Of a stretch of DNA of 64,000 bases, positions 48,268-51,305 are shown one piece after another. A model generated the notes under the pieces. It was not told where the DNA came from and did no database searches. It saw nothing but the letters and a program-made list of their open reading frames with translations. Position numbers and translations under genes: made by a program. This DNA comes from Elusimicrobium sp. An273 (lineage in GTDB: Bacteria; Elusimicrobiota; Elusimicrobia; Elusimicrobiales; Elusimicrobiaceae), in the NCBI RefSeq assembly GCF_002159705.1, contig NZ_NFJD01000001.1, forward strand, positions 1 through 64,000. The letters are read 5' to 3'. The stretch's first letter is position 1. Each line of letters begins with the position of its first letter.

Positions 48268-48279
48268 TATAATATAGGT
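48268..48279 (+). promoter_or_regulatory. -10 box directly before the hydrolase start
   Basis: TATAAT at 48268-48273 lies 6 bases before the ATG at 48280, and no ribosome site is visible between them. Transcription would begin at or next to the start codon, giving a leaderless mRNA. No good -35 was found. Confidence 0.5.
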
Positions 48280-49101
48280 ATGATTTGGGTACTTCTTTTC
48301 GCCGTATTGGCAGGGGTGTGGTATGGCCTTTCCCGGTTGGGGGCCCATATCGTGTTCCGCCCGCAAAAAAAGCGCTGGCCGCTGACGCTTCCTTTTCAAA
48401 ATGCCGCGTTTGACGCGCCGGACGGCACCCCTGTTACCGGCGTGTATCTGCCCGCACAAGCGGGCCGCCCCACGTTGCTTTTTTTCCACGGACGGGGCGG
48501 CAACGTTTCGCATTTTGAAAAATTCGCCCAGGTATATGCTTCCAAAGGCTACGGCATTTTTATGTTTGACTACCGCGGGTTTGGCCTGTCCAAGGGGCGC
48601 CCTTCCCAAAAACATATGTTTGAAGACGCCTTGGCCGCCGCGCGCTATCTGATGAATACCCTGCATATCCGTCCGCAGGAAATTGTGCTCTACGGCCATT
48701 CGCTGGGGAATGCGCCGGCCCTGTTTGCGGCCCAAACGCTGGGGAAATTGCCTTTTAAGGCACTCATTTTGCAAAGCCCTTTTTTAAGTACGCCGGATAT
48801 GGCCGTCTGCCTGTGGAAACACGTTTACGAGCCGGCTTCTTTCTTCTACCGCGCCACCAAAGTGTTCGTTACGCCGTTTCTTTGGTTCAACCGTTTTGAG
48901 AACACGCTTCCGGCCGGGCAAATCAAACTGCCTGCTCTTGTGTGCATGAGCCGTGCAGACGCCACTATTCCCTGGAAAATGAGCGCGCACCTGGCAGATT
49001 ATATTCCGCATACCAAACGATTCCTGTCTGAACACGGCGGGCACGACGAATTTGACTGGGCCGCCGACGCGGCAGATGCTTTTCTTAAAAATCTTTCGTA
49101 A
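48280..49101 (+). CDS. Membrane-anchored alpha/beta hydrolase (catalytic triad intact)
   Basis: Bem46/YfhR-like serine hydrolase of 273 residues. The frame extends upstream to 47986, but that part overlaps the divergent DUF2157 gene; MIWVLLFAVLAGVWYG at 48280 is an N-terminal anchor. The nucleophile is Ser141 in YGHSLGNAP, with the acid in SRADATIPW and the histidine in EHGGHDEFDW; LLFFHGRGGN forms the oxyanion region. Followed after 44 bases by a close paralogue. Substrate unknown; likely an esterase or lipase at the membrane. Confidence 0.88.
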   Translation: MIWVLLFAVLAGVWYGLSRLGAHIVFRPQKKRWPLTLPFQNAAFDAPDGTPVTGVYLPAQAGRPTLLFFHGRGGNVSHFEKFAQVYASKGYGIFMFDYRGFGLSKGRPSQKHMFEDALAAARYLMNTLHIRPQEIVLYGHSLGNAPALFAAQTLGKLPFKALILQSPFLSTPDMAVCLWKHVYEPASFFYRATKVFVTPFLWFNRFENTLPAGQIKLPALVCMSRADATIPWKMSAHLADYIPHTKRFLSEHGGHDEFDWAADAADAFLKNLS

Positions 49102-49145
49102 CCGGCGTTTTTTTGTTACTATAACTAAACAGAGGCTGCTTGCAT

Positions 49146-50000
49146 ATGCGTAAACTTCTTCCTTTCTTTCTGCTACTTTTGTTAATTGCCGCCTGGGCAG
49201 TATTTTTTGACCGGGCCACCGATCATTTTATTTTTGAACCTTCCCGCCAAATTTATTCCCTGCAGACGCCGTTTGAGGAAGTTTCGTTCCCCGCAAAAGA
49301 CGAAACCCCCTTATATGCCCTTTACCACAAGGCCGATCCGGGCAAGCCGACGCTGCTGTTTTTTCACGGCAACAAATACAATATATATAGTTTTCAGGAC
49401 TTTGCCCTGCCGTATACGCAAAAAGGCTATGGCCTGTTTATTTTTGACTACCGCGGTTACGGCAAAAGCGCCGGCAGAGCCACCGAAACGCATATGTACG
49501 AGGATGCCGAATCCGCCTTGTTTTATTTGACGCTTAAGCAAAACGTGCATCCGAAAGACATCGTGCTGTGGGGCGTGGCGCTGGGGGCTTCCCCTGCCTT
49601 ATATGTGGCCGCCCACTACAACAAACTGCCTTTTTTAGGGGTGATTTTGCAAAGCCCCTTTACTAATATCACGGAGATGGGGTTTTATATGCTTGCGCAA
49701 AAGTATGACGAAACCCCGGCCGCCACGATTCTCCCGCTCTTTTTAAAACCGATTCTGTGGAATAAAGATTTTAACAACACCCAAATGATAGAAAACGTTC
49801 GCGCCCCCCTGCTGATCGGGGCCTCGCAAATGGACAGAACCATTCCTTGGACTATGAGCCGCGCCTTGGCGGTCAAAGCGCCCGCCGGCACCCGAAAGTT
49901 TTTCCCGTCTTTGGGCGCGCACCACAACCCCGAATGGATGGAAGAAGAGGCCCTTGCTTTTTTAAACCAGCTGGAAACAAAAACGCCCGACGCCCGCTAA
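49146..50000 (+). CDS. Alpha/beta hydrolase paralogue with Ser-to-Ala nucleophile
   Basis: A 284-residue protein similar along its length to the gene before it: membrane anchor (LLPFFLLLLLIAAWAVFF), LLFFHGNKYN, FDYRGYGKSAGR, then LWGVALGASPAL in place of the GxSxG elbow. The nucleophile position is Ala145 (codon GCG), so normal hydrolase chemistry is not possible. The acid (SQMDRTIPW) and histidine (GAHHNPEW) remain. I use the ATG at 49146, 10 nt after AGAGG; a TTG at 49140 is an alternative. No frameshift or stop, so the gene seems maintained, perhaps as a binding or regulatory partner of its active paralogue. Confidence 0.87.
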   Translation: MRKLLPFFLLLLLIAAWAVFFDRATDHFIFEPSRQIYSLQTPFEEVSFPAKDETPLYALYHKADPGKPTLLFFHGNKYNIYSFQDFALPYTQKGYGLFIFDYRGYGKSAGRATETHMYEDAESALFYLTLKQNVHPKDIVLWGVALGASPALYVAAHYNKLPFLGVILQSPFTNITEMGFYMLAQKYDETPAATILPLFLKPILWNKDFNNTQMIENVRAPLLIGASQMDRTIPWTMSRALAVKAPAGTRKFFPSLGAHHNPEWMEEEALAFLNQLETKTPDAR

Positions 50001-50098
50001 GCCTGCGCCTGCCGCACGGTGTTTGCCAGACAAGAGAAAAAGAAGTTTTGTATAATAAATAAGCGCCGCAGGCCAGCCACTCGGCAAAGGCGCAAGCT

Positions 50099-50183
50099 GG
50101 AGAGGTGTGTGAGTGGTTGAAACAGCAGGTCTCGAAAACCTGTAAACCGCAAGGTTTCGAGGGTTCAAATCCCTCCCTCTCCG
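50099..50183 (+). tRNA. tRNA-Ser (anticodon CGA)
   Basis: An 85-base class II tRNA with acceptor arms GGAGAGG/CCTCTCC, anticodon loop CTCGAAA on a CAGGT/ACCTG stem, a long variable arm (AAACCGCAAGGTTTC) and T-loop TTCAAAT. Anticodon CGA reads UCG. CCA is not encoded. A terminator follows. Confidence 0.96.
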
Positions 50184-50190
50184 TAGATTT

Positions 50191-50289: not shown

Positions 50290-50787
50290 ATGCAACGAAC
50301 GCTCTCCCTTCTGTCAAAAATTTCCAATGCGGGCAATTCATTTATTACAGCCAAACTACGAGAACGCCATTATGGCCAGCTGGCGCCCTCTCACGGGGAT
50401 ATTTTAATACTGTTGTACAAATATAAAAAAATTACGATGCAAGAGATTGCCGCCAAAATTTTCAGAACCAAAGCAACGGTGACGGTGTTAGTCAATAAAC
50501 TGGAAAAAATGGATTTTCTAAAAAGAGAAAAAAGCCCAGCAGACAGCCGAATTACCTATATCAGCTTATCGGAAAAAGGAATAAAATTTAAAGCCGTATT
50601 TGACGAAATATCCAAAGAATTAAACCAAATGCTGTATCAAAATTTTACGGCAGGCCAAATCGAACGGCTGGATCATACGTTAGAAAAGATGTTAAAAAAC
50701 ACCTCCGGTCATTCTCCAAAAAATCGTGAACGGAGCCGTTCCGATAAACAGGCGTATAAGAATACAAAACGGCATTGCTCTTTTTGA
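50290..50787 (+). CDS. MarR-family transcriptional regulator
   Basis: A 165-residue winged-helix regulator: SHGDILILLYKYKKITMQEIA then FRTKATVTVLVNKLEKMDFLKREKS is the recognition helix, and DSRITYISLSEKG the wing. The C-terminus from about residue 140 is very basic (NRERSRSDKQAYKNTKRH). The gene is more AT-rich than its neighbours. It is followed by a SnoaL-like protein and may control that gene. Its own promoter carries a matching palindrome. Confidence 0.9.
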   Translation: MQRTLSLLSKISNAGNSFITAKLRERHYGQLAPSHGDILILLYKYKKITMQEIAAKIFRTKATVTVLVNKLEKMDFLKREKSPADSRITYISLSEKGIKFKAVFDEISKELNQMLYQNFTAGQIERLDHTLEKMLKNTSGHSPKNRERSRSDKQAYKNTKRHCSF

Positions 50788-50855
50788 GGTAAATCCGCAC
50801 CGCCAGAACGCCCCATAGAGGGCGAAACGTTTACGGGGCCTTTGCAGTATCACAC

Positions 50856-50872
50856 TTGGGGGCTTGGTGCCC
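50856..50872 (+). repeat. Hairpin before the SnoaL-like gene
   Basis: Perfect arms GGGGGC and GCCCCC around TTGGT, about 20 bases upstream of the start codon and just before the AGGAG site. It could influence translation of the next gene; it has no T-run. Confidence 0.45.
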
Positions 50873-50891
50873 CCGAAACAGGAGTCTTCAT

Positions 50892-51305
50892 ATGAATACG
50901 GAGCAGAATAAAAATGCAATGAAAAAATTTGAAACAATGATTAATACGGCCGATTTAAATTTGGCTAACGAATTAATCAGCGCAAACGCCCAATTTATTA
51001 CGCCGGTTTCTCCGACGCCGCTGATTGGCGGAGAAGGCTATTTGTCCGTCGTTCATTTTTTACGTTCCGGTTTTTCCAACGTACAATGGAAGGCGGAAGA
51101 AATGGTGGCAGAAAAAAATATCGTGGCCGTAAGCTGGATGTGCACCGGCACGCACGACGGTGAATTTCTGGGAATCAAACCCACGCACAAAACCTTCTCC
51201 GCCCGTTTTATGAATTTTTACTATTTTAATGAAGACGGAAAAATCATAAATGATGTCGCCGCGGAAGGGATGATTGCCATTATGAAAGCCATTGGCGCCT
51301 TTTAA
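50892..51305 (+). CDS. SnoaL-like ester cyclase family protein
   Basis: A 137-residue protein starting MNTEQNKNAMKK (AGGAG site 7 nt upstream; an earlier in-frame non-standard start at 50856 is not supported). It fits the NTF2-like/SnoaL fold: NLANELISANAQFITPVSPTPLIGGEGYL, WMCTGTHDGEFLGIKPTHKTF and MNFYYFNEDGKI. Many such proteins are annotated as ester cyclases or steroid isomerase-like; the substrate is unknown. It lies 104 bases after the MarR gene and is probably its target. Confidence 0.82.
   Translation: MNTEQNKNAMKKFETMINTADLNLANELISANAQFITPVSPTPLIGGEGYLSVVHFLRSGFSNVQWKAEEMVAEKNIVAVSWMCTGTHDGEFLGIKPTHKTFSARFMNFYYFNEDGKIINDVAAEGMIAIMKAIGAF

Follow-up and report, generated by a model that had tools for sequence, protein, structure and literature searches.

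A membrane-anchored alpha/beta-hydrolase-fold paralogue without its nucleophile serine is maintained by purifying selection in Elusimicrobium

The second gene of a tandem pair of membrane-anchored alpha/beta hydrolases in Elusimicrobium sp. An273 (genome G000) has lost its nucleophile serine, a loss that is neither a strain mutation nor universal among its orthologues, and the gene is nonetheless maintained by purifying selection. We think it close to an even chance, and no better than that, that this second protein is a separately expressed, exported, pocket-bearing pseudoenzyme that binds a ligand, and not an inhibitor that contacts its neighbor. The window, which is the whole stretch of 64,000 nucleotides that was analysed, contains the two genes (A and B) with the following features, the residue positions being taken from alignments:

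48280..49101, + strand: gene A, membrane-anchored alpha/beta hydrolase with an intact Ser-Asp-His triad, 273 aa
48700..48702, + strand: A Ser141 codon TCG, nucleophile, Ser in 21/21 A rows
48958..48960, + strand: A Asp227 codon
49042..49044, + strand: A His255 codon
49146..50000, + strand: gene B, membrane-anchored alpha/beta-hydrolase-fold paralogue without the nucleophile, 284 aa
49365..49370, + strand: B His74-Gly75, the HG of the oxyanion region
49578..49580, + strand: B Ala145 codon GCG, at the position expected for the nucleophile serine
49833..49835, + strand: B Asp230 codon, acid retained
49920..49922, + strand: B His259 codon, histidine retained

Both frames are open and are separated by 44 nt in the window; B begins with the ATG at 49146, while the listed open reading frame begins at a TTG at 49140. 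The two proteins are 41% identical over 259 columns (BLASTP, E 5e-66). The nucleophile elbow is G-H-S141-L-G in A and G-V-A145-L-G in B, the acid (Asp227/Asp230) and the histidine (His255/His259) are common to both, and each protein begins with one hydrophobic helix in the structural models. The original prediction, that tandem paralogues share an anchor, an acid and a histidine and that the second has GVALG in place of GHSLG, is therefore borne out, as is the open frame that it assigned to the second gene. Its further statement that the oxyanion region is shared holds for the FFHG motif, which is present in both proteins, but not for the loop that follows, where A has RGGNVSH and B has NKYNIYS. 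A [K/R]xN loop like that of B is also found in serine-bearing B orthologues, and thus the loop predates the loss of the serine. With its full triad of Ser141, Asp227 and His255, A is predicted to be an active serine hydrolase; B, which has neither Ser nor any other nucleophile at the elbow, is not. Since no acyl-enzyme can form when the serine is missing, B is unlikely to hydrolyse esters in the classical way. The original prediction went further and called B catalytically dead: the nucleophile is indeed absent, but death is a step beyond this, because AqdC and HOD turn over with Ala at the elbow according to the excerpted text of PMC10548524.

How widespread is the loss? A survey of 66 genomes of the genus with B as the query identified a B orthologue in 14, with close orthologues in L034 (Elusimicrobia bacterium UBA1436) and L035 (uncultured Elusimicrobiales bacterium). 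The elbow residue is Ala in nine of the 14 (G000, G024, G050, G054, G058, G002, G021, G007 and G029), Gly in one (G035) and Ser in four (G101, G028, G027 and G003). In contrast to the elbow, the triad Asp and His are present in all 14 B proteins, including all 10 copies that lack the serine, and the serine itself is found in 21/21 A copies and in 20/20 copies of the related types C, D and E. B has thus lost, within its lineage, a catalytic residue that its homologues have, as is expected of a pseudoenzyme. A core clade of 12 genomes, supported at 96/99 in the species tree, includes 11 with B, and 10 of those B proteins are without Ser. The original prediction took serine in the orthologues as the mark of a strain mutation. 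Four orthologues do have it, but it is absent from 10/14, and every sampled species of the window clade that still has B, with the exception of G101, lacks it; a strain mutation is therefore excluded. The serine in G101, itself a member of the core clade, means that the loss of the nucleophile is not absolute.

Omega was estimated by maximum likelihood (MGK+F3X4, fixed tree) from the same 10 genomes for A and B, and is 0.150 for B and 0.129 for A, values that are approximate because most pairwise dS exceed 1 (saturation). The log likelihood for B is -6755.3 with omega free and, with omega at 1, -7210.6 (kappa 2.0) or -7234.4 (kappa 1.278). B is maintained by purifying selection. Omega is similarly 0.128 for the serine-bearing B copies, 0.124 for C, 0.147 for E and 0.136 for A without B; that of D is unusually low (0.059). 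All 10 non-Ser copies of B are full length, with a coding part that contains no stop or frameshift, and a frame-broken pseudogene, which the value of omega also disfavours, is ruled out. The original prediction that B has been kept by selection as a pseudoenzyme is supported by these results, with the serine replaced in 10/14 orthologues, Asp and His retained in 14/14, and an omega far from 1.

It is fairly unlikely, in our view, that selection on B has instead been relaxed, so that a protein redundant beside A lost its serine and is slowly decaying, its conserved residues reflecting no more than the requirements of the fold. The rate of evolution of B is about 1.5 times that of A (tree length 9.05 versus 6.05), with 99/284 invariant residues in B as compared to 146/273 in A. 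Furthermore, the elbow tolerates Ala and Gly alike, the serine is missing only where A is present, and B has been lost altogether in G012. The faster rate and the loss in G012 are such that slow decay could explain part of the pattern. However, relaxation is difficult to reconcile with an omega of 0.15 over at least ten species, near the values for A alone, E and serine-bearing B, with the full-length open frames of all ten non-Ser copies, and with the retention of the promoter motif of B described below.

The A-B pair occupies a chromosomal position that is kept in most of 22 neighbourhoods, between a left-hand block of genes, some members of which are missing in places, and a conserved right-hand neighbor:

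50098..50184, + strand: tRNA-Ser(CGA), conserved right-hand neighbor of the slot

By sequence character we take the left-hand block to be Mrp - GDYX - DUF4401 - DUF2157; no such block was seen in the stretch read for G013, G055 and G102. On the other side, fmt, a gene for a PASTA protein and rpe come next after the tRNA-Ser where the contig or stretch reaches, although not everywhere; in G050 and G007 the tRNA is present and fmt is absent from the stretch read. In G000 two genes at 50290-51305, presumably MarR-like and SnoaL-like from their sequence character, lie between the tRNA-Ser and fmt, and they gave no tblastn match in the 22 other neighbourhoods.

A slot-type hydrolase is present in 39/66 genomes: 11 have A and B, three B only, 10 A only, five C and D, and 10 E, the A-only count including G014 and G026, which are cut by a contig end and may have a B. 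C and D form a second type of tandem pair in which both proteins have Ser (L208 (G104), G005, G046, G048 and G052), and in G104 this pair lies in the same slot. Relationships were examined with a hydrolase gene tree of 55 copies and one outgroup, and with a species tree of valS, secA and alaS (2657 columns, 22 genomes), which were used in place of rpoB because that marker was over the cut-off in only 17/30 genomes. The core clade consists of the 11 genomes with A and B plus G012, where the tRNA directly follows A and B is gone. A is likewise found without B in G045, G042, G013, G055 and G102. Two sister relationships in the species tree each join B-only to A-only genomes, namely G028 with G045 and G003/G027 with G055/G102, a pattern that suggests the reciprocal loss of serine enzymes that were once redundant.

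Two promoter-like elements precede the genes of the pair:

48268..48273, + strand: TATAAT, -10-like element of A, 6 nt before the ATG, leaderless-looking
49114..49122, + strand: TGTTACTAT, extended -10-like element of B (TGnTAnnAT)

The TATAAT and its 6-nt spacer are identical before A in all 11 A+B loci. The divergent DUF2157-like gene (upstream of 48227, - strand) likewise has TATAAT exactly 6 nt before its ATG, and this arrangement in both genes is as expected of leaderless transcripts; for comparison, TANNNT at distance 6 occurs in four among the 57 long ATG open reading frames of the window. The A-B gap is 36-47 nt long in 11/11 loci and in every one contains a T-rich tract followed by TGnTAnnAT, a motif read by eye. 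Its conservation suggests that B probably has its own promoter and would be expressed separately from A.

The positive-inside rule relates the charge flanking a membrane helix to its orientation. Net charge is lower on the N-terminal than on the C-terminal side of the helix in 20/20 A proteins, and it is higher on the N-terminal side in 12/14 B proteins, the other two being ties. Similarly, it is lower on the N-terminal side in 5/5 C proteins and in 8/10 E proteins (two ties), and higher in 5/5 D proteins. On these flank charges, the domain of A is predicted to face inward and that of B outward, on opposite sides of the membrane. Cysteines after residue 30 average 2.72 in A (18 rows) versus 0.29 in B (14 rows, with none in 11/14); C and D do not differ, at 1.0 each.

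Comparison of G000 with G024 suggests a different history for the two genes. The two sequences are mostly 91-99% identical as far as about 49.0 kb, with a single 100-nt bin at 88%; identity is 0.86 in the last A bin and 70-83% over B, reaches 100% in the bin of the tRNA, and is 92.5% in the match that picks up again at 51.5 kb. This drop at about 49050-50100, in a region otherwise about 95% identical, is likely a recombination tract adjoining the tRNA-Ser. Since A has a dS of 0.24 between these genomes and B one of 1.08, and identity falls over B, we propose that B was probably swapped for a homologous segment, with A unaffected, in the lineage of G000 or of G024. Both B proteins have Ala today.

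These observations bear on the suggestion of the original prediction that B is a partner or inhibitor of A. We think it unlikely that B joins A in a complex and modulates it as a partner, chaperone or inhibitor. The genes are in tandem at a short and constant range of distances, and a non-Ser B is found in 10/11 loci with A and in 0/3 loci with B only, so that all 10 non-Ser copies adjoin an intact A, and Ser is present in each of the three B-only genomes; because of shared ancestry, the loci counted here are not phylogenetically independent. What stood of the suggestion is this restriction of non-Ser B to loci with an intact A. Arguing against a complex are the predicted opposite topology of the two domains, the promoter-like motif of B's own, the persistence of A without B in G012 and the other five genomes listed above, the probable exchange of B but not A between G000 and G024, and the existence in G101 of a pair whose B bears the serine. 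B is thus probably not a direct partner of A.

The G101 protein (L034 4001-4885) is the sole A-adjacent B orthologue with serine, and its elbow resembles that of its own A. The B serine codon and the next seven codons are identical to A at 23/24 nucleotides, the best of 245 windows in the gene, as compared to 0.50-0.75 in the other 10 A+B genomes, and among 19 B/D proteins only that of G101 has the A-type Asn after SLG. By codon usage alone, seven of eight identical codons have a P of 0.005; as 63% (74/117) of the same-residue codons of G101 A and B are identical anyway, P becomes about 0.14 by a hand calculation, for an 8-codon window picked post hoc with the data already seen. Gene conversion from A as the source of the serine is therefore suggestive only; the residue may instead be an ancestral Ser that was kept, or belong to a Ser allele that was imported. 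The G101 assembly has frameshifts in secA and alaS. In gene trees computed without the nucleophile column, G101 is basal in one and nested with G058/G002 (80/83) in another, and a single clade of all Ala/Gly copies was not rejected in the AU test (p 0.484); the gene trees do not settle the order of serine loss and gain. In the species tree G101 is nested with G050/G058/G002, so that the most parsimonious history has Ser lost once and regained once, with the caveat of an apparent exchange of B between lineages. One could imagine a toggled pseudoenzyme, with paralogues on opposite membrane sides and an outward paralogue whose nucleophile was switched off and, in G101, back on through a very short gene conversion from its inward neighbor, but we regard this scenario as improbable.

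Both proteins belong to the alpha/beta-hydrolase fold superfamily by Pfam and by predicted fold. B matches Hydrolase_4 (48.9 bits, cut-off 27), Abhydrolase_1 (45.9, cut-off 25.8) and Abhydrolase_6 (30.3, cut-off 26.3), and A exceeds the curated cut-offs of the same three families with scores above those of B. AlphaFold single-chain models built on six-row alignments show a full alpha/beta hydrolase for B (mean pLDDT 83.1, pTM 0.82) and have a mean pLDDT of 86.1 and a pTM of 0.86 for A. In VIA-align the top neighbor of both models is 6imp_A, with Z 25.0 over 243 residues in each case (2.4 A for B, 2.9 A for A). This is the ABH effector domain of the Vibrio vulnificus RTX toxin (6imp, 6ii2), also the best PDB sequence match (E 5e-8, residues 66-177); its elbow is GYSMG, it is about 17-20% identical to A and B in the structural alignments, and the likeness is one of fold only. 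The other neighbors are generic esterases and lipases, and together the modelled neighbors support the fold and not a substrate. Likewise, we claim no substrate from NCBIfam, where every match (among them UilS lactonase, RutD and PEP-associated hydrolases) scores far under its cut-off. The pair presumably resembles the BEM46/ABHD13-like membrane-anchored serine hydrolases, with their N-terminal membrane segment, HGxxxN loop and GxSxG elbow; those have the elbow serine that B lacks, and profile searches of Pfam and NCBIfam gave no match to this family.

What could such a fold do without its serine? Gut Elusimicrobiota are probably anaerobic, so oxygen chemistry by B is unlikely. This weighs on the idea, rather improbable to us, that B is still an enzyme, in which His259-Asp230 would act as a general base on a bound substrate by analogy with the cofactor-independent dioxygenases HOD and AqdC, which use O2. 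All 10 non-Ser copies keep Asp and His, but B is membrane-anchored and its tie to HOD and AqdC is at the level of fold, and the Gly of G035 argues that the elbow residue is not tightly chosen. In the excerpted text of PMC10548524, AqdC has a natural Ala at the nucleophile elbow with a His-Asp pair as the base, and the S101A mutant of HOD has an unaffected kcat and a 60-fold higher KM; B displays the same combination of a retained His-Asp pair and an elbow Ser replaced by Ala.

A second precedent comes from Mycobacterium, where the MPT51 gene lies beside fbpA, of the antigen 85 mycolyltransferases. MPT51 is of another subfamily and is secreted and soluble, whereas B is membrane-anchored. By description, B would be similar to MPT51 (FbpC1), which the excerpted text of PMC4232451, citing Wilson et al. 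2004, presents as a non-catalytic alpha/beta hydrolase related to active enzymes; serine-less alpha/beta hydrolases are thus already known. A literature search at the level of titles and the starts of abstracts returned no paper on this locus.

We propose that, in part of the genus, the fixed slot houses two alpha/beta hydrolases, each anchored by a single membrane pass, that form an old tandem pair, the first gene (A, C or E type) having a domain that is probably cytoplasmic and the second (B or D type) one that is probably outward. In the window clade, A would have stayed an active serine hydrolase, while B would have lost its nucleophile, from Ser to Ala and then to Gly in one species, and retained its fold, anchor, own promoter, Asp and His. 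We infer that B, as a ligand-binding pseudoenzyme, may bind the old substrate or product and make no acyl-enzyme.

Finally, one substitution is usually all that a pseudoenzyme is inferred from. In this genus a single syntenic slot contains serine-bearing B alone, serine-bearing B with A, Ala- or Gly-bearing B with A, and A after the loss of B. Because there are relatives with and without the serine, the reading of serine loss can be tested, and the variants amount to a natural experiment, on a small scale, that asks whether a gene first becomes redundant beside an active neighbor and then loses catalysis. They also bear on the use for which a hydrolase fold without its nucleophile is retained, and for both questions the locus offers an unusually good set of natural variants.
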